DNA of 64,000 nt. Origin: a virus. The stretch lies in IMG/VR virus record IMGVR_UViG_3300001242_000018, positions 1 through 64,000 of that record. One strand, written 5' to 3'. The notes under the pieces are model-generated. The model did not search any database, had not been told where the DNA came from, and saw only the letters and a program-made list of their open reading frames with translations. Below, piece by piece: positions 21,228-58,925 of this stretch (position 1 is its first letter; the number at the start of each line of letters is the position of its first letter). Both the position numbers and the translations under genes were made by a program.

Positions 21228-21243
21228 TAAAGTGGGTGATCTA

Positions 21244-22635
21244 GTGGAATTAGAATCACTACCCGGCTATGGTACATTCTCAGGGACAGACATGGTTATA
21301 TCCATGGTATTTCCAGGTTGTAAGCCAATTACTCTTGGTCAAGCTACAACAGTTAGCTACTCCGTACTTCGCGATAAAAATGAAGTAAGAACCATAGGTC
21401 GAATTACTGCTAAAGGATTTACTAAAGGTGGGCGTAGAGTTGCCGGACAAATAATATTTACAGTATTCAATAGACATATTATTGAAGATATAAAAGAGCA
21501 GATTGATTATCTTAAAGATATTCCAAGAATACTTATGGACGAATTACCACCTTTCGATCTTATTATAACTTTGGCAAACGAATACGGGAGCTCGGCTTTT
21601 CTTGTTATCTATGGTATCACTACACTACATGAAGGTAAAGTATTCTCAGTTGAAGATATGATGACAGAGAATACATTTCAATATCTAGCTAGAGATATCA
21701 AACCATTAGGAGCTGGTTTTGGTGGTGTTAATTTCGTAGCTAGGACAGAATTCAGAGCAATGGATGAAATGCTGGCTAAGTTTAAAGTAGAAAATCTAGC
21801 TCCCGAGATTGCGGCTGCAGAATGGGAAAGGAAAGCGGCTGAGATGCAAGCAATCATTGATGCACAAATATCTCAGATTCCTCCTGCATCTAGTTCTACA
21901 ACAACAGTTTCGCCAGTACAATCACAGACTTCAGAGAGTTCTGGATATAAGATAGGTAGTGTAAAGCTTAAAGTGTTTGTTAGAGACGAAGATAGTCATC
22001 CTCTAAATCTAGCCAAAGTTCGGATATGGGTAGCGAAGAAAAACAGAGCTTTTCCTTCAGAACCTAATTTCTATACATGTGGTGATGATCATATGGTCGA
22101 ATTTGACCTCGAGGATATGCCTATATACGATACTCCTGGTGGGAATCATGCCGACGATCTAGTTAGGATTAGAGCAGTATGTGATGGATATTCTGATGAT
22201 GTTCAGACAATTTATCTTTCAGACGAATTAGAAAATGGCGTAGCTGATAAAACTATGGTTTTGAAGTATTCTACAGGTTCTTTTACAATGATCCGAATAC
22301 GGCCCGAACAAGCTGTAATCGAAGAAGATATGAATTACAGAGAGATCTTTGCTGCCAGGCTCTTTTCTAATGGATACAAATTAAGTGATGAGCCTGTTAC
22401 ATGGATGTGGTGGGTTGATTGTATTGAGAATACAATCAACCCAAATTCAATTAAAGAACTACATCAAAAAGGAGATACTACCGGTAGTGACGGAGTTACT
22501 ACATTCGATGCTATAAATGAGATTAAGAAACTATATCCTCAATTTGATCTTGTAAACGGAGTGCAAATAAGACTCTCGTGTGTAGCTAATCGTGGAGGAA
22601 CAATTCCTTGTGCATGGATAATTAAGAGTAGGTGA
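21244..22635 (+). CDS. Tube-like protein with C-terminal Ig-like domains
   Basis: Start GTG at 21244 chosen because GGGTGA lies just before it; a GTG at 21232 is an alternative. About 463 residues. The first ~160 repeat the tube pattern: FSGTDMVISMVFPG, TVSYSVLRDKNEVRTIG, then LPPFDLIITLANEYGSSAFLVIYG, with one His/Glu-rich segment. A helical linker (about 175-205) follows, then a Ser/Thr/Gln stretch and two Ig- or CBM-like beta domains (KLKVFVRDEDSHPLNLAKVRIWVAKK; YREIFAARLFSNGYKLSDEP). This is a tube paralogue with appendages, perhaps the tube-tip or baseplate-proximal ring. A 33-base perfect hairpin lies near its 3' end (22411-22443). It ends in TGA TGA; the next gene starts 4 bases later. 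Confidence 0.7.
   Translation: MELESLPGYGTFSGTDMVISMVFPGCKPITLGQATTVSYSVLRDKNEVRTIGRITAKGFTKGGRRVAGQIIFTVFNRHIIEDIKEQIDYLKDIPRILMDELPPFDLIITLANEYGSSAFLVIYGITTLHEGKVFSVEDMMTENTFQYLARDIKPLGAGFGGVNFVARTEFRAMDEMLAKFKVENLAPEIAAAEWERKAAEMQAIIDAQISQIPPASSSTTTVSPVQSQTSESSGYKIGSVKLKVFVRDEDSHPLNLAKVRIWVAKKNRAFPSEPNFYTCGDDHMVEFDLEDMPIYDTPGGNHADDLVRIRAVCDGYSDDVQTIYLSDELENGVADKTMVLKYSTGSFTMIRIRPEQAVIEEDMNYREIFAARLFSNGYKLSDEPVTWMWWVDCIENTINPNSIKELHQKGDTTGSDGVTTFDAINEIKKLYPQFDLVNGVQIRLSCVANRGGTIPCAWIIKSR
22411..22443 (+). repeat. Perfect 15-bp inverted repeat inside tube-like gene
   Basis: TGGGTTGATTGTATT, loop GAG, then AATACAATCAACCCA. It lies within codons for W-W-V-D-C-I-E-N-T-I-N-P and has no T-run. 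It is the longest perfect stem with a tiny loop seen inside a gene here. Confidence 0.6.
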
Positions 22636-39463: not shown

Positions 39464-42400
39464 ATGAGTGGCTATACTATTACTGAAGCATTTTTAAGTC
39501 CTTGTAGGAATAGACCTGGTGATAAAAGAACTCCTCAAGGGATCGTTATCCATAGGACGGGTGTGAATCAACCCGACCCTAATATTATACGAAGAAATAT
39601 GCAAAACGATAATCCTTATCCGGCTAGTTCTCATTACGTTATAGGTTCTAATCAAATACTTTATATTATCCCGGATGATGAGCGGGCTCATCATACCGTA
39701 GGTGGTAATAATTGTATTGGTATTGAAACTTGCGAACCTATTACAGCCGGCTCGTTAGCGAGATTGGTGTGGCTATGTGCTTACTTATGCGATAAATGGA
39801 GATTTCCTAAAACAGAGCAAAGTATTAAACCTCATAGCTACTACGATTCCAATACACGACCACACGATCCATTTAGCTGGAGTCTCTATAAGGCCGGTAA
39901 GGCAGATCCTAATGGAGTGATCGATCCTTTTGCTTTCTATAGAGCTATTAATCAATCTACTTCCGGTGGAGGTACTGCTGTAGTACCTCCACCATCATCG
40001 ACGCCCGTTGGTATATCGACGGATGCCGTTAGCGGTATACAACCATTCAATACGGATTTCATAAAATGGGATGCAATCGATCTATTCGGACTAGATACAG
40101 ATATCGTTCCCGGGTGGCGTAACAGAGCAACACCATTTCATTTGCGTATTGGTGATAGCGTATTCTTTGTTCCACCAACTTCTATTAAAGTTAAAACTGT
40201 TGGAAATGTGTCTACTATGAAATCCATGAGATCTAAAAGTAGTATTAAGACTAAGAGTGGATATACCCAAACAGAGATACGTTTAACTCTGTACTTTGGT
40301 GATATCGAGCAGATTAATGGATTCCCGGTAGCGGGGCCGGCCGGTGAGATTTACAGCATGGATGGATTAAGACCACTTCTGGCACAATTCATGAGAACGC
40401 CAATCATACCTGTAGTTAATGAACGACTTAATGACGTGTTTGGTATATATAATGTATGCCTATCGTCTATAACTGGATATACGGATAAGGACTTCCCCGA
40501 TACATTGTCTGTAGAACTTATTATGCATAAGACAACAGTAATGCCATATATCCAAAGGCATGATGCCGATCTTGACCGTATGATTTGTTATCCATTATTC
40601 CGTTGGTATTATCAGCAAGTACTTCAGCCTACAGCATTGGGACGGGTGAATCAATCATGGTTACAGCCGATTGTTAATTATATGAATGGCTCATTTAAGT
40701 TTTATATTATTGATAGTAGTTTTCTTGAAACTAACGATGTAGTCTCTATTGCGGCCGGCATTGCTATGGTAGAGGTAGATATACCAAATGATGAAGTAAT
40801 AATCAATTCCATGTCTTTAACTACTCATAATTTATTTAGTGCGGTACATTTACAAATGCATACCGATCCGTCTCACCAATACATGGGATCGTTAGATACT
40901 AATATCTTTATTCAGCTAGAGACAGAGAATAGAGATATTGTTAAACAATTTGTTGACTTGCAAAAACTTACAGAAGAATATGCTATCAACTATCGTGATA
41001 AATTAGTTTCAGGCTTTGTAAAGTTAGAGAATGAACTGGTTCAGTTATTCGGAGTAGAGTATGTAATGATTCATGCTATAGAAATTGATACCGTAGAAAA
41101 TGAGCCAGGCATGACACGAATTGCTATAGCTTGTGTCAGTTACGACCCGAGTCAGAAAGATAATGAAGCTGTTGACGGTTTCCTGCCGTTTCATGATAAA
41201 ACCAATCTAGTAGGTAATGTACAAAGCGTACTGTTAAATAGTATGGCAGATGCGCCTACCGAGTACTTACAGACTATGGTTGCTGAAGAGGTTGTAAATA
41301 ACTTAGACCTATACCCGGATCTCGAATTGCCATCGTATAATCAAGTGGCACAAGCTCTGCTCGATATAAACGCGCAGAGAAGGCAACGTAATTTAAAGGA
41401 TCTTGATTTTAATGTGTTTGTCTCTCCGGCATTAAGAGGTAAGAATTATTCAGGCTTTAGAGTCGATCCTGACTTTTATGTTAAATACGATTATTTACAT
41501 CTTGGCGGAATGGTTAATCCAGCTATAGTAAATGGAGGTACAATCAATAGTAGCTATCCTGCAGGTATTGGTATAGATCCTAACGCACCTACACCAGTCT
41601 CGACAACCACCGTTACGACTAATACTACAACTTCAGTTCCGGGAGAACAAAGGACATTCGAGATAACAGCGTATTGCGCTTGTCAAAAGTGTTGTGGCAA
41701 GTCTCCGGGGAGTCCTGGTTACGGTGTTACAGCAAGTGGAGTTATGGTTAAAGAGTGGCATACCATTGCTGTAGATAGGAATGTTATACCAATGGGTAGC
41801 TGGGTATATATTCCTTACTTTAAGAACAAACCTAATGGAGGCTGGTTTAAAGCCGAAGATACCGGCGGGGCCATTAAGGGTAATAGGATAGATGTTTATT
41901 ACAAGAGCCACCAGGAGGCATTAAACTTCGGAAGACAAAGATTGCCTGTCATAATAAGTAAAGAAAAGGGAGCGACTCCTCCCAGCGGAACTGCCGGAAC
42001 TACAATGTCTGTTAATCCTACAGCTAACTCTTCTAAAACAAAAACAGAGTTCATAGCACTGGTTAAGGCTCAAGTAGGTAAACCTTATGTTGTTACTACA
42101 GAGGGGCCTGATACTTTCGATTGCTCTGGTCTTGTACAATGGACATTCGCTCAGTTTGGAGTTAATATAACTCGCCTTACTTATACTCAATGGAAACAGT
42201 GTCAAGAAATAACCAAAGGTGATTTGACTGTAGGTGATTTGATTTATACAAGATGGGGAGATGGCCCAGATCCGGTCAATCCAGACCATGTTGGTATATA
42301 CTTAGGCGATAATACTATTGTTCATGCTAAGGGTAAAGCTTATGGAGTAGTTCAAATTAGTGGTAACAGTCTTGGTGCAGATTCTCGCTACTTTAGATAC

Positions 42401-45400
42401 TTACCGATGGCCGAGGTTTTACAGACAGGAGCAGTAAGTTCGTCCTCGGGTATATATAACTCAACAGATAGTACAGGCCTTAATTGGAAAGATGAAAAAC
42501 TTCCAGATTGGATTTATGCACAAACACCGCCGGTAATGACTAAACCTTACGGAGAGAGAGTTCAAGCTCCGGACATATCTAAGCCCGAAGGTATTGACGA
42601 GTTGGCTAGACAGATGTGCCATGATTGGCTTACTTATTCTTGGGATGGAAGATTCGTTAAAGCATTTCCAACCTTTGCTATGGTGATATTAGACGAAGGT
42701 ATGTGGATAAGTGGTAGAAGAACGTGGACAAACTTTTATACCTACCATTCTGTGTTGAATATAACTACTGTCAAAGATCGAGACAATCCTGTAGACCTTG
42801 CTATTATATCTCTTACGAATATCTATGGTAGCCTAAATGCCAAACTTAGATATAAAGCTAAGGGAGGAGATACCTGGGCTAATAATATCTTTCCTCGGAT
42901 AGATATGTCAATTCTAAAACAAAGAGCCGAAGTGCTAAAGAACATTAGTCTAAAGACCGGTGCTAGGGTGCATCTCAAAATGGGATATGGTTCTGTTGCA
43001 GAATGTTTACCTACAGCTTTTAATGGTGTGATAGCAGACATAGATTCCAGGGAGAATATGACTATTATATGTCAAGGTGATGGTATAGAGCTGGTCGATC
43101 CTATATTAGAGTGGGATGAGAATCAAAGAACCAGTATCTTTAATTTAACCAGTACCCCGTGGACAATGTTTTACATGATACTAGCCCACCGTGGACTCAT
43201 GTTTCACTGGGGTAATAGTATGGTCGTTCAGGAGTTTATTAAAGGATTGAAAAGTACTATCGATCTTGCAGAGACGTTTGCAGACTGGGTTAGTAGTATG
43301 ATAGAAAAAGGAAAACTGGAGAAAGCACCAGAGAAGCTATCAAATGCTATTAAAAGTGTAACAATGGTAAATCCCGCAGGAGAGACTGGAACAGATGAAG
43401 AGCATTTTGATATAGCATGTGTAAATGCCGGTATTTATGCAAGTTATATGACAGTCGATCAAGTCAAACCCGAACAATGGCAAAGGTGTATAGAAATATA
43501 CAAAGAAAGAACTGGTAAATCTATTACAGTCGAACAGGCTAAACAAATGTTCGTTGGTGGCCAGGAAAAGGTAGAAGCCGCTACAGGGGAAATGATGCCA
43601 GAATCCTTAGACGGTTATATCTTTGGAGATGCCAACCCTTATGGTATTGAACACTTCGGTTATGTATATAAGAAAGAAGATGACATATCCTGGGGTGGCG
43701 ACCCGGAAAGAAGTACCGATATAGACAGTGGTAAGAAGATAAGCGCCTATGATACTATGAAGAATATCTATGATAGGAACCCGGCTTTTCCTAACGACCC
43801 TGACCCGGGTGTTAACTGGCTATGTCAGTTATTAGGCTTTATCGGATACGATGAAGATGCCGGCAAGGGCGGTATTCAAATGTATATAGGTGGTAAGAGT
43901 CCCTGGGATATCTTTAGGACAATATCCTTTGCAGAACGGGATAAGATAGTAGCCATTCACCACTACCATTTTAGAAGTACCTTGTTTTACGGGATGCCAC
44001 ATTGGCCGGTAAAATATGCATTAAGACTTAAGAGCGGGGATGGTACCAAGAAGGAAGATTATGAAGAGCTATATAAACCGTTTAGTCAATTCTGGCTTTA
44101 TAATAGTTACTATCATATTATTGATAATGGTATCCGCGCTAGTAATACGGATTTAGTAACTAATTGTGCAGCTATCTATTCTATTGAAGGTAAACCAGTT
44201 ACCAGTAAAGTAGTAAAGGCTGATAAGTATATTAAAAGAGAGCTTCAAAAGACAGAGATCTTTGATAGTACTACTATACAAGATAGCTTTATCCCTAATG
44301 CCATTCCCGCTATGGAAACTATACTACCTTTCCTTGGTTTTGCTACGGGCGAAAGTCGGGCTGTAGAGATGTGCCGCAGCCATTTAAGAGAGAAATTTAG
44401 AGGTATGTATCAGGGAGAACTTTTAATATTAGGACAAGTACCTAAGCAACATGATCAGTTTTATCTCGACGATGCTTATACCAAGATGAATGGTATGGCC
44501 GATATAGGGCGAGTCGTTATTCATATGGGATTTGATACAGGATTTATTACCTCTATTAAACCGGATTTACAGGTAGCTATTGCTGGGAGTGAAAGAAATA
44601 AAGCCCTTTTGGGTATATCGAGACGGGCCTTACAATTTGCTAAATACTCTGCTAACGGATTCTTATTCCTGCTTGCTTCTGGAGCATTTGTAGTCGGCGT
44701 TAAGAATGCGAAGTTAGCCGGTACGGTATGGACTGCTGTCAGAAGTATAAAGAACATAAGGACAGCTATCTCAGGATTAGGAACCATAGCCGGAGGGTTG
44801 GCGTTAACTGCCGGAGCCACCGCAGCTGCTATAGGAAGTATGTTAGGTGGTCTTGTTGTTACCATCTTTGGAGTTTTAGTATTAAATGGTATGTGTGAAC
44901 TATATGATAAATACACTAATCGCTATCAGCAGGAGATTAAGATATACCCATTATGGTATAAAGGGATGCCATATACTGCTGGTATAGACGGTCACCAAAC
45001 GTTAATTCCGGGTTTAAAAGATCCGTTTTATTATCCAGACCCTATTATAAAATGGGAGAATACCGGTGACAATGGTGCCACTTCTAAAGATGGTTCTCAG
45101 CCCGGGACTGGGAACGACGATTTGACAGATATTCTACAAAGACTTGGTTTTGTCTATGACGAATTTACTCCGGCTACAACCGGTCAACTTTCAGTACCTG
45201 GTACTGGTACAAATAGCGAATATAAGCCAAACGATCTTATGGATATATCCAGGGCTCGTTACTTTAGATGGCCTACAATGAGCCGTAAGATTACCGAAAT
45301 TTCAATAGGACGGATGGATAACAACGGTAAAAATTCTCACGTAAAAGGTATCGATATCGCAGGTAATCAAGACGATCCTGTATTCGTTGCTTGCTCTGGT

Positions 45401-45685
45401 ATTGTTAATAAAATAGGTAACGATCCGAGCCCGGGTGGTCTCGGTCAGCATGTTATAGTCTCTCATCCCGGTGGAAGTCAAACAGTATACGGGAATCTTG
45501 GAGAAGTTAAAGTAAGCCATGGTGAAAAACTCGACTGTCGTACTCTTAATAATAGTATCTGTATAATCGGGACTATTGGTACCAGTGCGAAGAAAGCTGA
45601 CGGATGCGACCAGGAAGAGCCACATTTACATTTCGATATTCTTGGTATCCCGGCGGATAAGACAATATTTCATTATTTAGAGTAG
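39464..45685 (+). CDS. Giant baseplate-hub protein with four peptidoglycan-hydrolase domains
   Basis: 2073 residues. In order: an Amidase_2 N-acetylmuramoyl-L-alanine amidase (about 20-140; His 30 in GIVIHRTG, Glu 88 in IGIETCE, His 124 and the H-D pair at 134-135); a hub-like beta region (about 200-700); a 3D domain (about 730-830; ITAYCACQKCC, VDRNVIPMG, DTGGAIKGNRIDVY); an NlpC/P60 endopeptidase (about 860-985; Cys 887 in DCSG, His 942 in DHVGIYLG, His 954); a large hub region with a hydrophobic Ala/Gly-rich stretch near 1726-1815; and a C-terminal M23 metallopeptidase (His 1959, Asp 1964, HLH at 2054-2056). The M23 first motif has one extra residue between His and Gly. Position before the spike genes fits the gp27-like hub plus lysins. 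It would cut the wall during penetration. Confidence 0.85.
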   Translation: MSGYTITEAFLSPCRNRPGDKRTPQGIVIHRTGVNQPDPNIIRRNMQNDNPYPASSHYVIGSNQILYIIPDDERAHHTVGGNNCIGIETCEPITAGSLARLVWLCAYLCDKWRFPKTEQSIKPHSYYDSNTRPHDPFSWSLYKAGKADPNGVIDPFAFYRAINQSTSGGGTAVVPPPSSTPVGISTDAVSGIQPFNTDFIKWDAIDLFGLDTDIVPGWRNRATPFHLRIGDSVFFVPPTSIKVKTVGNVSTMKSMRSKSSIKTKSGYTQTEIRLTLYFGDIEQINGFPVAGPAGEIYSMDGLRPLLAQFMRTPIIPVVNERLNDVFGIYNVCLSSITGYTDKDFPDTLSVELIMHKTTVMPYIQRHDADLDRMICYPLFRWYYQQVLQPTALGRVNQSWLQPIVNYMNGSFKFYIIDSSFLETNDVVSIAAGIAMVEVDIPNDEVIINSMSLTTHNLFSAVHLQMHTDPSHQYMGSLDTNIFIQLETENRDIVKQFVDLQKLTEEYAINYRDKLVSGFVKLENELVQLFGVEYVMIHAIEIDTVENEPGMTRIAIACVSYDPSQKDNEAVDGFLPFHDKTNLVGNVQSVLLNSMADAPTEYLQTMVAEEVVNNLDLYPDLELPSYNQVAQALLDINAQRRQRNLKDLDFNVFVSPALRGKNYSGFRVDPDFYVKYDYLHLGGMVNPAIVNGGTINSSYPAGIGIDPNAPTPVSTTTVTTNTTTSVPGEQRTFEITAYCACQKCCGKSPGSPGYGVTASGVMVKEWHTIAVDRNVIPMGSWVYIPYFKNKPNGGWFKAEDTGGAIKGNRIDVYYKSHQEALNFGRQRLPVIISKEKGATPPSGTAGTTMSVNPTANSSKTKTEFIALVKAQVGKPYVVTTEGPDTFDCSGLVQWTFAQFGVNITRLTYTQWKQCQEITKGDLTVGDLIYTRWGDGPDPVNPDHVGIYLGDNTIVHAKGKAYGVVQISGNSLGADSRYFRYLPMAEVLQTGAVSSSSGIYNSTDSTGLNWKDEKLPDWIYAQTPPVMTKPYGERVQAPDISKPEGIDELARQMCHDWLTYSWDGRFVKAFPTFAMVILDEGMWISGRRTWTNFYTYHSVLNITTVKDRDNPVDLAIISLTNIYGSLNAKLRYKAKGGDTWANNIFPRIDMSILKQRAEVLKNISLKTGARVHLKMGYGSVAECLPTAFNGVIADIDSRENMTIICQGDGIELVDPILEWDENQRTSIFNLTSTPWTMFYMILAHRGLMFHWGNSMVVQEFIKGLKSTIDLAETFADWVSSMIEKGKLEKAPEKLSNAIKSVTMVNPAGETGTDEEHFDIACVNAGIYASYMTVDQVKPEQWQRCIEIYKERTGKSITVEQAKQMFVGGQEKVEAATGEMMPESLDGYIFGDANPYGIEHFGYVYKKEDDISWGGDPERSTDIDSGKKISAYDTMKNIYDRNPAFPNDPDPGVNWLCQLLGFIGYDEDAGKGGIQMYIGGKSPWDIFRTISFAERDKIVAIHHYHFRSTLFYGMPHWPVKYALRLKSGDGTKKEDYEELYKPFSQFWLYNSYYHIIDNGIRASNTDLVTNCAAIYSIEGKPVTSKVVKADKYIKRELQKTEIFDSTTIQDSFIPNAIPAMETILPFLGFATGESRAVEMCRSHLREKFRGMYQGELLILGQVPKQHDQFYLDDAYTKMNGMADIGRVVIHMGFDTGFITSIKPDLQVAIAGSERNKALLGISRRALQFAKYSANGFLFLLASGAFVVGVKNAKLAGTVWTAVRSIKNIRTAISGLGTIAGGLALTAGATAAAIGSMLGGLVVTIFGVLVLNGMCELYDKYTNRYQQEIKIYPLWYKGMPYTAGIDGHQTLIPGLKDPFYYPDPIIKWENTGDNGATSKDGSQPGTGNDDLTDILQRLGFVYDEFTPATTGQLSVPGTGTNSEYKPNDLMDISRARYFRWPTMSRKITEISIGRMDNNGKNSHVKGIDIAGNQDDPVFVACSGIVNKIGNDPSPGGLGQHVIVSHPGGSQTVYGNLGEVKVSHGEKLDCRTLNNSICIIGTIGTSAKKADGCDQEEPHLHFDILGIPADKTIFHYLE

Positions 45686-45693
45686 GTGAAATC

Positions 45694-46080
45694 ATGAATC
45701 TTAATAACGGTATCTTACAGACGATTTACAAAAAGGTAGTAGCGCCGGCTATAGCTAACGTTACTAAAGACGTTAGAGGGACTGTTACAGAATACTATCC
45801 AGAACAAAAGAGATGTAAGGTAAGATTTAGAGACCCTAATAGCCGTGGTATATGTGAATTGGTAGTACCTATACAAATCCAGGGTGGAATTAATCACCCT
45901 GGCCCATTTCCGGGAGAAGATGTACAAATCGTATTCCCGGGCGGTAATTATACCTTCGGTTATATAAGTGGGGTTCTAGATCTTAATTATAGCTCATCTA
46001 CAAGGGGTAGAAGACAAACCCATAGACGGAAGGGTTCTTTTATACCAGATATGATAGGTGAAAGGACTGGTGAGTTGTAA
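45694..46080 (+). CDS. OB-fold baseplate spike protein (gpV/gp5-like)
   Basis: 128 residues, SD GTAGGTGA. The core (VTKDVRGTVTEYYPEQKRCKVRF, ICELVVPIQIQGGINHPGPFPGEDVQIVFPGG, YTFGYISGVLD) is the OB-fold found at the base of contractile-tail spikes. The C-terminal ~35 residues are basic and likely connect to the next protein. It overlaps the next gene by one base (TAATG), so the OB-fold and the beta-helix seem to be split over two coupled genes instead of one. Confidence 0.75.
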   Translation: MNLNNGILQTIYKKVVAPAIANVTKDVRGTVTEYYPEQKRCKVRFRDPNSRGICELVVPIQIQGGINHPGPFPGEDVQIVFPGGNYTFGYISGVLDLNYSSSTRGRRQTHRRKGSFIPDMIGERTGEL

Positions 46081-46604
46081 TGGCGTACGGGGGTCAATCA
46101 TTACGTTTAAATGAATATGCGAATAAACCAACAGATAACCCGTTACTCGAACTAAAACAAAGTGCGGAAAATGTAAGGTTTCCATCCGGTTCCGAACCAG
46201 CTTTAACACATCCTTTTAATACAAGTATTGTTAAGATACGAGACAATGGTTGTATTGATATTTTCTGTGGTACTAATGTCGGTATTAGATTAGATCCTAA
46301 CCTAGCTAACATATCGCTAATTACCGATGGAGAACGTCATCACACCGGATATTTAAGAGAATGGATACAAAAGGATGTAGAAAGACATGTTGGCCGTAAC
46401 ATTTTAACCAAGATAGGTGGTAATATCTATTTAGAAGCGCAGGGAAATTGTACTGTTAATATTGGTGGCAATGCCGACCTTAACATCGGCGGGAATGCTG
46501 ACATAGAAATAGGCGGAAATGTAAAGATTGATAATGAAGGTACCGTAGAATGGATGTCTGGTGGGAATATGTATTTCGCGGCACCTAACTACTTCTTCTC
46601 ATAA
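46080..46604 (+). CDS. Spike beta-helix protein
   Basis: 174 residues starting in the TAATG overlap with the OB-fold gene. The C-terminal ~70 residues repeat strands of about 8 residues with Gly-Gly-Asn turns (GGNIYLEAQGNCTVNIGG, ADLNIGGNADIEIGGNVKID), which is the triple-stranded beta-helix pattern of a membrane-piercing spike trimer. The N-terminal ~100 residues form a separate beta domain (LTHPFNTSIVKIRDNGCIDIFCGTNVGI). Partner of the OB-fold protein and carrier of the PAAR tip gene that follows. Confidence 0.75.
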   Translation: MAYGGQSLRLNEYANKPTDNPLLELKQSAENVRFPSGSEPALTHPFNTSIVKIRDNGCIDIFCGTNVGIRLDPNLANISLITDGERHHTGYLREWIQKDVERHVGRNILTKIGGNIYLEAQGNCTVNIGGNADLNIGGNADIEIGGNVKIDNEGTVEWMSGGNMYFAAPNYFFS

Positions 46605-46635
46605 ATTAACTCAAGCTTTGTACAGAGGTGATAAA

Positions 46636-46977
46636 ATGCCAGCAGCTTGTAGAATAGGTGATAGAATGAATGGCAGCGTCGGACACCACAATGGTCATGG
46701 TTGTCCAGATAACTGATGTGGTGGCCACTCGGTTACGGGTGGCCAAGTGACCGGGAGTCACAATATGTTTATTAACGGTAAGTCCGCAGCAAGACTAAGC
46801 GATACAGGTTATACAACCTGCCCATGTTGTGGAGCAGGATATACGAATGTACAGGCTAGTACTAGTTTATTTGTAAACGGTCGGGGTATTGTAAGAGTTG
46901 GAGATGGAGTGAATATTCATCTCCAAGGGGCCGGAAATATGGTAAGCGGTTCTAATAACTTCTTTGTTGCGAGGTGA
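46636..46977 (+). CDS. PAAR-like spike tip with in-frame TGA (possible recoding)
   Basis: Start ATG 46636 after AGAGGTGATAAA; the frame continues to a TGA at 46975-46977, interrupted by one in-frame TGA at codon 27 (46714-46716). With the interruption read through it is 113 residues. Both halves belong to one small PAAR-type tip protein: GHHNGHGCPDN before the TGA, then CGGHSVTGGQVTGS, NMFINGKSAARLSDTG, a Cys-rich CPCCG, and SLFVNGRGIVRVGD. These repeats coordinate a metal ion at the spike apex. There is no further disruption in the frame, which argues against decay. A stem-loop sits 5 bases after the TGA (see separate entry). If the TGA were a true stop, only 26 residues would be made; a GTG at 46747 or ATG at 46765 could restart the rest but would lose the first metal-binding part. 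Confidence 0.65.
46714..46745 (+). promoter_or_regulatory. In-frame TGA with downstream stem-loop in PAAR gene (SECIS-like candidate)
   Basis: TGA at 46714-46716. Stem 5' arm TGGCCACTCG (46722-46731), loop GTTA (46732-46735), 3' arm CGGGTGGCCA (46736-46745): ten pairs including one G-U. The loop starts with G and begins 15 nt after the TGA. From what I recall of bacterial selenocysteine-insertion elements, the apical loop lies about 16-37 nt after the UGA and has a G among its first two bases; this is at the edge of that range. Other readings: stimulation of UGA readthrough, or coincidence. Confidence 0.45.
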
Positions 46978-46981
46978 GATG

Positions 46982-47389
46982 ATGCGAGTAGCTAAAGATA
47001 TTGCAATATCTCCGGACGGTGATTTTATCATTCGAGATCACGATCTGGCCGTAGCTAAAGAAGGGGAATTTCAGTTACAGTCTATTATTAATAGGATAAA
47101 AGCTGTAAGGATTAATTGGAGATTAGATCATATCGGGGCGGATATGGAAGATATCATAGGAATGCCTAATAGTCCCGATACGGCTCAGCTTACTATTGAT
47201 AAGATTACCTTTGCACTAACTGAAGACGATCTTATAGATAAGAAAGATATCTATATCAGACCAGTCCCTATATCGAAAACTACGATATTGTTCTTCTTAT
47301 TTGTTAACAGTCCTTATTTTGCACAACCTATTAGTTTAGAAATTGGTTTAGATCTTTCCTCCGGGGTTATCAAAGTAATGGAGGTTTAA
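46982..47389 (+). CDS. gp25-like baseplate wedge protein
   Basis: Adjacent in-frame ATGs at 46979 and 46982; the second is better spaced from GAGGTGAG (46971-46978). About 135 residues. The N-terminal strand-helix pattern (DIAISPDGDFIIRDHDLAVAK, QLQSIINRIKAVRINWRLDHIGADMEDIIG) and the C-terminal strands (DIYIRPVPISKTTILFFLFV) are those of the gp25/W family in the baseplate inner wedge. Position between the PAAR tip and the gpJ-like gene is the usual one. Confidence 0.75.
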   Translation: MRVAKDIAISPDGDFIIRDHDLAVAKEGEFQLQSIINRIKAVRINWRLDHIGADMEDIIGMPNSPDTAQLTIDKITFALTEDDLIDKKDIYIRPVPISKTTILFFLFVNSPYFAQPISLEIGLDLSSGVIKVMEV

Positions 47390-47391
47390 AT

Positions 47392-48240
47392 ATGCTCCTA
47401 AAGATCAACAAGGATTTTGAAACCATAATGACAAATGCTATGAATAGATTAGCAAATTCTGAGGAATTATCAGAGATTAGTCGTGGCGGAGTAACTAGAC
47501 TTCTACTGGCTATCTTTAACGAGGAATTTGCTAAGAGTTCAGAAAGTAATGTTGATGGTTTTTATGACACATTAAAGAAAGAACTGGTTCAAGCTTTCTT
47601 GTCTTATGCAGGAGAAGACGCACTTGATGCGATAGGATATATGATGTACTGTAAACGATACGTTGATGAAAAGGATGAACCGTATCGTTATCGAATTAGT
47701 CAACAACTGTTAAGTATGGCTACCTCTAATGAAACGGCCGTACGTCTTGCTTGTCTGTCGGTACCCGGAGTAGATGATGTTATTATGAAAGCGTATACTC
47801 ACGGCACCGGTTCCGGCTCTATATATGTTATTAATAAAGATCCGGCTGAGTTACCAAATCTTATTAAACAAGTAACCACTGCAGCTAGAATGGTCGGCGG
47901 TTGGGGAACTAGAATTGACGTATTTCAACCTCGGTTCCTTAATGTGGAGATTCGTATACGTATAATCTTTTACAAGGATGTATCAGAACTAGATCAGAAC
48001 CTTATTAGAGGTACCGCAAAGATTAGTACAGAAGATTACCTAGCGAGTCGTAATGCTGGGGAACCCTTGGATGTTAAATATATAGAAGAGATTGTATCTA
48101 AGATCAGTTTAGAAATCTCTGAAGTACAGATATATTACTTAACTGTAAATGAGGAAACGGTACTGTTGGTAAAGCAGCTTTGCGCCTGGAATGAGCGTTT
48201 TATCCCCACTCGTAAAGGAAATGCGGTAATTATTAGTTAG
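47392..48240 (+). CDS. Baseplate J/gp6-like wedge protein
   Basis: 282 residues; starts 2 bases after the previous gene. The N-terminal half is helical (GGVTRLLLAIFNEEFAKSSES, then FYDTLKKELVQAFLSYAGEDALDAIGYMMYCKRY). The middle has the gpJ-family pattern of RYRISQQLLSMATSNETAVRLACLSVPGVDDV followed by a strand, and a beta-rich end (VEIRIRIIFYKDVSELDQ). This is the gp6/BaseplateJ wedge arm. It is shorter than many family members; C-terminal arms may be missing or lie in a following gene. Confidence 0.75.
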   Translation: MLLKINKDFETIMTNAMNRLANSEELSEISRGGVTRLLLAIFNEEFAKSSESNVDGFYDTLKKELVQAFLSYAGEDALDAIGYMMYCKRYVDEKDEPYRYRISQQLLSMATSNETAVRLACLSVPGVDDVIMKAYTHGTGSGSIYVINKDPAELPNLIKQVTTAARMVGGWGTRIDVFQPRFLNVEIRIRIIFYKDVSELDQNLIRGTAKISTEDYLASRNAGEPLDVKYIEEIVSKISLEISEVQIYYLTVNEETVLLVKQLCAWNERFIPTRKGNAVIIS

Positions 48241-57179: not shown

Positions 57180-58925
57180 GTGGTGGATTTACAAGTATTT
57201 AATTTTAACTATACCGGTAGTCAACAAGAAGTAACACTACCTCCCGGTATATATAAGCTTGAAACATGGGGCGCTCAGGGTGGTAATAATGGAGCTCCCG
57301 GTGGTTACGCCTCTGGTATTTTAAACTTAGGGGATACTGAAACTCTTTATATATATATTGGAGGAATAGGAGCTCCTAATTCTACTGGTTGGAATGGAGG
57401 CGGTTTTGCTAGTCCTTATGGCGGCGGCGGTGGTGGTACCGATATACGAAGAGGAGGACAAACTCTTAATGACCGTATCCTGGTTGCTGGCGGCGGAGCT
57501 GGACACTCTCATACAGCTCAAGGTGGCGCTGGTGGTGGATTAATTGGTATTGGTGGAACTACTGGCAGTGGAGGTACACAAACACAAGGAGGTAGTTCAG
57601 GAGGAGTAAGTGGAACATATGGTAGCTTTGGTTACGGTAGTAATGGAATAAGTCATGGTTCTGGTGGCGGAGGTGGATGGTACGGTGGCGGAGGTGGATA
57701 TACTTGAGGTAGTTCCGGTGGAGGAGGTTCCTCCTATTATGGTGGAGTTCTAAACGGTATCACTACCCCTGGAATTCGTACTGGATATGGTAAGGTTGCT
57801 ATAACTTTACTTGCCTTACTGGGTATAGAAGAAGCTGTTGAAACTGCGGTATTTAATAGTTCTGGTAATTATCAGACCTTTATTGTACCAACTACAGGAA
57901 TTTATCAATTAGATCTTTTCGGTGCTGTAGGTGGTGCTTATTCTTACCCTGGTGGTTCTGGTAGTCATGTTCGTGGTCAAATGTTATTAGATTCCGGTCA
58001 AGAGTTATATATATTTGTCGGCGGGGATGGAACGGGCTTTATTGGCGAAGGTGGAGGATGGAATGGCGGTGGTAATGCCGGGCCGCTAGGGCCTGGTGCA
58101 GGTGGTGGCGGTGCTACCGATATTAGAAGAGGCGGTATAGAATTAGAAAATAGAATTATCGTTGCTGGTGGCGGTGGCGGCGGTGGGAATTTAAGCGCCG
58201 GTAGTTCCGGTGGAGAAACTTTGCATTTAACTACAATATTAGGCAATGGTCAAAACCATCCAGAGATTGGCGGTGGTGGCGGTGGTGGCTACTACGGTGG
58301 TATGGCCGGTGATATAAATAGGGGCGGATATGGCGGTTCTTCGTATGCTGGTAATTTACGTAACCCTATTATTAATACAAATATATGGTATAATGCAGGT
58401 TTGGTTATTATATCAAGATTGCCTACGTATACCTCGTTTATAAATTCATTAACGTTTAAGACTATCGTTAGTTCTTTCGAAATTATTAAGCTGACCTTCT
58501 TAATGGGCGATTTAAAATCTAGTAAGCCCGTCGATATAGAAATAGAAATACTATCATCCGATAGACAAGAGACTATACCTGAAGAGCAAATCGATACTGA
58601 AAAACTATATTGTATTGATAGTCAACAAATTACGATAACTGATGATAATAACCGAATTGATACAAGCGATACTATTACGATTGAAGATATAGAGATTGAC
58701 CCTAATCAGTTATACGATATTAAGATCTTATTAAGTTTTGACAATAGAAATACCTGGTTAGCTTATGATCATAATAGTCATACTTGGATAGAATATAATA
58801 CTAACGATGTTAGTATATATGGCATGGCCTTCTGGCAACTTAAATCTATACCAGAAGAAGTCTGGAGTGAGAAACTTTCTATCTGGTTAAATCTTTGTAT
58901 ATGGGTTCAGACAGGAGATGTATAG
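57180..58925 (+). CDS. Glycine-rich fibre with in-frame TGA (possible recoding)
   Basis: GTG at 57180 or 57183, SD AGGAGGT at 57170-57176. The reading frame runs to TAG at 58925 and is interrupted once by TGA at 57705-57707. Read through it is 581 residues: two glycine-rich domains (about 1-215 and 220-415) and one copy of the SFDNRNTW-type domain (about 488-581) shared with the preceding gene. The first domain is incomplete without the part after the TGA: its final strand (GYGKVAITLL) lies beyond it, just as the related domain of the preceding gene ends with GNGKARITLL. No other stop or frameshift is present. If the TGA stops translation, a 175-residue truncated form is made, so a two-isoform fibre is another possibility. 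Confidence 0.6.
57705..57734 (+). promoter_or_regulatory. In-frame TGA with downstream stem-loop in glycine-rich fibre (SECIS-like candidate)
   Basis: TGA at 57705-57707. Stem GGAGGA (57720-57725), loop GGT (57726-57728), TCCTCC (57729-57734): six perfect pairs. The loop starts with G and begins 18 nt after the TGA. The TCC TCC serine codons create the stem; equivalent serine pairs in the sister domains use TCT AGT and TCT TCG, which would not. Chance base pairing in Gly/Ser-coding DNA is the main alternative. Confidence 0.4.

Follow-up and report, generated by a model that had tools for sequence, protein, structure and literature searches.

The window, which is the whole stretch of 64,000 nucleotides analysed here, covers the first 64 kb of a virus record of 137,036 bases (IMG/VR IMGVR_UViG_3300001242_000018; GC content 38.6%). 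It contains, on the plus strand, a PAAR spike-tip gene (46636-46977; 113 codons, ATG start, Pfam PF05488, PHROG 281) that adjoins spike and baseplate genes in the order OB-domain, gp5-like beta-helix, PAAR, gp25-like and J-like. The first of these encodes a spike OB-domain protein (45694-46080, assigned from a weak PF04717 match and from its position), and the second a gp5 C-terminal-like beta-helix spike protein (46080-46604; PF22178/PF06715, PHROG 430) that the PAAR protein would cap. Downstream are the genes for a gp25-like sheath initiator (46979-47389; weak PF10934, PHROG 25235), whose ribosome site falls within the 3′ end of the PAAR gene, and for a baseplate wedge J-like protein (47392-48240; PHROG 6; 32% with Moorella phage MTATph1). 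Farther upstream, a 2073-codon baseplate protein (39464-45685) apparently combines amidase-like, NlpC/P60-like and M23-like parts, as judged by eye.

The PAAR gene has a Shine-Dalgarno-like GAGGTG at 46625-46630 and contains a single in-frame TGA, which is codon 27 (46714-46716). The next codon is TGT (Cys), and the frame stays open up to the terminal TGA at 46975-46977. An earlier reading of this DNA, made from the letters alone, had described this TGA and a hairpin following it, and all of its coordinates and distances for the two proved correct. This sequence-only reading had also claimed PAAR patterns on both sides of the TGA. For the C-terminal part the claim is borne out by Pfam (44 bits against a cut-off of 27 for PF05488, covering residues 34-92 only); the N-terminal half is recognised through homologues only, among which the N-terminus of PAAR is kept. 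By Pfam, homologues, AlphaFold and Foldseek, the read-through product is a complete PAAR. Its AlphaFold model has a pLDDT of 90.6, with the UGA site in the loop of lowest confidence (residues 21-30, pLDDT 63), and the top Foldseek PDB matches of the model are the PAAR proteins 4jiw, 4jiv, 4ku0 and 6p1z and the P1 baseplate 9vyi. A bypass of the kind described for T4 gene 60 was considered and discarded, because the PAAR pattern resumes in the same frame immediately 3′ of the TGA.

The genetic code of the phage is standard: TGA closes other ORFs, Trp is encoded by TGG at all 587 of its codons, and the anticodon UCA is absent from the tRNAs. The true interruptions in the 137-kb record are the TGAs at 46714 and 57705 only; none is TAA or TAG. 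With just two in-frame TGAs, existing TGA stops and Trp always encoded by TGG, the decoding of UGA as Trp or Gly, offered earlier among the alternatives, is ruled out as a code-wide change. A lineage-wide recoding of UGA was rejected as well, since none of five other phage genomes scanned (related or PAAR-sharing) has a TGA interruption.

The closest PAAR, L235, comes from a 142-kb IMG/VR phage (IMGVR_UViG_3300010283_000005) and is 42% identical. It reads HGNKCCPHNVTGPATEGS, and the window PAAR reads HGCPDN-UGA-CGGHSVTGGQVTGS. The nearest homologues thus place Cys-Cys opposite UGA-Cys, in a register that is ambiguous by one residue. When the His residues are aligned by eye for L235 and the CCPH family (viral and prophage PAARs), with one residue inserted ahead of His, the UGA stands opposite the first Cys. 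This first Cys is present in nearly all members of the CCPH family and is replaced by Asp (DCPH) in a few; another PAAR family reads HGCPACPH. In the MAFFT alignment the UGA falls in an insertion and Cys28 lies on the first Cys, a shift of one residue. The pairing of the UGA with the Cys column of the homologues is therefore likely, as far as the alignments go, and not secure. Other PAAR subfamilies have Asp or A/G/H/S at the column facing the UGA, so Cys is not strictly required there. The comparison of codon 27 with homologues, proposed in the sequence-only reading, thus yields Cys-Cys in the nearest PAARs, but with a shifting register and with subfamilies that lack Cys. A search of IMG/VR with the TGA-PAAR pattern gave 81 matches, none with the TGA in frame; likewise, no in-frame TGA was present in 43 IMG/VR relatives or in the other translated PAAR matches, and exact peptide patterns retrieved no close PAAR relatives from IMG/VR or from 85k genomes.

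Folding confirms the hairpin: a 10-bp stem (46722-46731/46736-46745, including one U-G pair) closes a GUUA loop (46732-46735), and 5 nt separate the TGA from the stem and 15 nt from the loop. Against shuffled sequences the hairpin has z = -3.4. Sites were compared by a bSECIS-type score, the energy of the best hairpin near the site with a G among the first two loop bases. The PAAR site scores -19.6 kcal/mol, a value equalled by 0 of 406 Cys codons and 0 of 3000 random phage codons. Among 4069 TGAs only two others match it, both next to a single other hairpin (22386/22389). That hairpin (22386-22440, -20.3) is as strong as the PAAR one and lies 3′ of out-of-frame TGAs at 22386 and 22389 within the ORF at 21232-22635. 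Synonymous recodings of the PAAR gene equalled -19.6 kcal/mol in 4 of 3000 cases, or in 0 of 4000 with a slightly different span for the score; the PAAR protein sequence therefore does not force the hairpin. At the matching Cys codon of 12 Cys-containing homologues, the score was 0 to -8 kcal/mol in 11 and -13 in one. GC3 is elevated only across the 15 codons after the PAAR TGA (9/15 against 31% genome-wide, p=0.019). The geometry of this hairpin is SECIS-like and statistically exceptional.

The published bSECIS model calls for a loop of 3-9 nt, a stem of 4-16 bp, an MFE of -7.5 or lower, a G as the first or second loop base and a distance of 16-37 nt from the UGA (PMC13188914). The main hairpin agrees with this model in everything but spacing, its 15 nt being 1 nt short. 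An alternative hairpin (46728-46755; 11 bp with an AA bulge, loop GUGG) overlaps the main one, is mutually exclusive with it and lies 22 nt from the UGA, within all four published constraints. It is weaker (-13.6, or -14.8 kcal/mol with flanks) and moderately unusual, being reached by 100 of 3000 synonymous recodings and by 16 of 4069 TGAs. As controls, 24 true sites with GrdA, GrdB or FdhA motifs were used. Their energies are mostly -5 to -14 and their GGU usually stands 18 nt after the UGA, so both versions of the PAAR hairpin deviate by 3-4 nt from the clostridial norm. The SECIS-like layout proposed from the letters is thus partly supported, by its geometry and statistical excess; the alternative hairpin agrees with the four rules and is weaker, the main hairpin misses the published spacing, and an Rfam search of the element gave no match. 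By eye, UCGGUUACGGGU of the PAAR element looks like the E. coli fdhF element, a likeness that is not a test.

The phage itself appears to bring no selenocysteine machinery: the sequence-only reading had proposed a check of phage and host for SelA, SelB and SelC, and in the phage record SelB has no match, and none of the eleven ARAGORN tRNAs reads UGA or is a tRNA-Sec. A match to RF01852 at 109396-109476 of the whole record, considered as a tRNA-Sec candidate, is a tRNA-Ser because its anticodon is UGA. The machinery would have to come from the host. The phage encodes the anaerobic ribonucleotide reductase NrdD, which implies an anaerobic host. Its nearest isolated relative, with 36 shared genes, is Moorella phage MTATph1, whose host is Moorella thermoacetica, for which 6 selenoproteins are listed (PMC1794560). 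The selenoproteins FdhA and GrdA, interrupted by a TGA in frame, are widespread among Clostridia-type genomes: when some 200 genomes from the Syntrophomonas phylum were searched, 63 had a GrdA match, almost always containing a single in-frame TGA, and many had FdhA with a TGA. A selenocysteine-decoding host is plausible. The NrdD gene (112420-115806 of the whole record, minus strand) carries an intein with a LAGLIDADG domain.

The sequence-only reading had overlooked the second in-frame TGA of the genome, at 57705-57707. It lies inside the first of two ALK/LTK glycine-rich (GRD) repeats of a virion-like protein gene (57180-58925, plus strand). The hairpin after it, GGAGG[AGGUU]CCUCC (about -10), agrees with the published model and has its GGU exactly at the canonical SECIS position. 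It is unremarkable, being equalled by 384 of 3000 recodings and at 69 of 552 codons of its own gene. The site is not a Cys site, as both the internal repeat and one relative lack Cys there; when 149 genomes and all phages were searched with the glycine-rich protein, there was no match, which is uninformative. An in-frame UGA in this phage thus need not mean selenocysteine. The second UGA may be a further selenocysteine site, yet its non-Cys position and ordinary hairpin favour general UGA leakiness or point mutations.

Our tentative preference is for a working PAAR spike-tip gene in which UGA27 is recoded, most likely to selenocysteine; this is the best single explanation because of the exceptional hairpin, the Cys-Cys homologues, the phage NrdD and the Moorella-infecting relative. 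The case for selenocysteine is carried by the hairpin, and the case against it by the second UGA and the spacing. It is somewhat unlikely that the TGAs are nonsense mutations at single bases or errors in the consensus (TGC or TGT to TGA in PAAR, and in the glycine-rich gene a change such as GGA to TGA), affecting dispensable proteins or leaving non-working variants. Such changes would account for a genome with two in-frame TGAs, of which at least one sits at a site without a Cys relative, and for the five related or PAAR-sharing genomes without such interruptions; TGA is one base away from Cys codons and from Gly codons, and PAAR may be dispensable, as none of the baseplate relatives examined has one. 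However, under mutation or error the hairpin behind the PAAR TGA would have to be a coincidence (its strength is reached by about 1 in 750 synonymous recodings), and the interruptions are TGA only, with the remainder of both ORFs intact.

Ordinary UGA readthrough or suppression, inserting Trp or another residue in a leaky-UGA host with possible stimulation by the hairpin, would explain both TGAs by a single mechanism: with a single tip on each virion, a few percent of full-length PAAR would be enough, and a minor extended form of the glycine-rich protein would arise. Across the whole record, a back-up stop within 7 codons follows 12 of 14 TGA-ended ORFs and 44 of 102 TAA/TAG-ended ones (p=0.0035), an excess that speaks for leakiness, but none of the five other phages shows a significant excess on its own. 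The second TGA, the back-up stops and the lack of TGA interruptions in the five other genomes are explained no less well by a leaky UGA or by mutation than by selenocysteine. The leaky base following UGA is C, whereas the two UGAs here are followed by U and G; moreover, the glycine-rich TGA is within a domain and not at a boundary, and the phage has no suppressor tRNA that we could find. In favour of readthrough, its level at TGA is about 6% in B. subtilis (PMC7918605). On balance we consider this explanation unlikely, although it and nonsense mutation are both serious rivals to selenocysteine. A restart of translation after a stop at UGA27 is very improbable. The first possible site, a GTG at 46747-46749, lies 10 codons 3′ of the TGA with a GGGTGG-like site, and the resulting 76-residue remnant has a Pfam score equal to that of the whole protein; it would, however, lose the N-terminal strand of the predicted fold and the tip loop, the N-terminus is retained by homologues, and the GTG sits in the base of the alternative hairpin.

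If UGA27 is read as selenocysteine, a host that decodes selenocysteine would do so with its SelB and tRNA-Sec, guided by the hairpin directly 3′, to which SelB would bind. A recoding efficiency of 30-40%, as measured in E. coli (PMC4513850), would be ample with one PAAR per virion. Residue 27 would then join the Cys/His loop holding a metal at the PAAR tip. Such a metal-ligand role is plausible since known PAAR tips bind zinc via Cys and His (PMC10715212). The product could accordingly be a phage virion selenoprotein, with host-supplied selenocysteine in a metal-binding loop at the spike tip and infectivity dependent on host selenium, a possibility that we put forward with some reserve.

The window gene resembles the PAAR tips c1882, VCA0105, T4 gp5.4 and phiKZ gp163.1 in fold, repeats, Cys/His-rich tip loop and the gene order spike - PAAR - gp25 - J. 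It differs from them in having a UGA inside the tip loop, a loop that exceeds the one in the closest homologue by three residues. With bacterial selenoproteins that have a bSECIS (E. coli FdhF; clostridial FdhA, GrdA and GrdB) it shares the in-frame UGA, the stem-loop at once after it, the G then G/U opening a small loop, and Cys in homologues, here at the UGA or one residue from it. In contrast to them, its main loop is 3-4 nt closer to the UGA than in the controls, it is a phage virion protein and not an oxidoreductase, and no relatives with the TGA were found. The coat of phage Q-beta offers another parallel, in which UGA readthrough gives a virion protein in small amounts. In Q-beta the shorter form is itself the major coat protein, whereas a PAAR ending at the UGA would be a peptide of 26 residues and of no use.

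A selenoprotein in a phage virion would be new. If true, it would be the first selenocysteine in a virus particle, at its metal-tipped point; it would make the phage dependent on the recoding machine and selenium supply of its host, and would add a structural, non-enzymatic use of selenocysteine. A 2026 review of the prokaryotic selenoproteome lists no selenoprotein from a virus or phage and contains no occurrence of phage, virus or PAAR (PMC13188914), and the only link between phages and selenocysteine found in the papers searched is the tRNA-Sec gene of Basilisk-like Bacillus phages (PMC6145125). Those phages have a tRNA-Sec without a selenoprotein, and the phage described here has a candidate selenoprotein without a tRNA-Sec. 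Its tRNA genes form a cluster at 107932-110948 of the whole record, which includes Leu(taa) twice and two Ser tRNAs, and a further tRNA-like match with the anticodon CAT lies at 8361-8415 of L011, a piece of the whole record. The phage with the closest PAAR (IMGVR_UViG_3300010283_000005) has a similar tRNA set and a predicted tmRNA (tag AKVVNFFGSRTAACAA).
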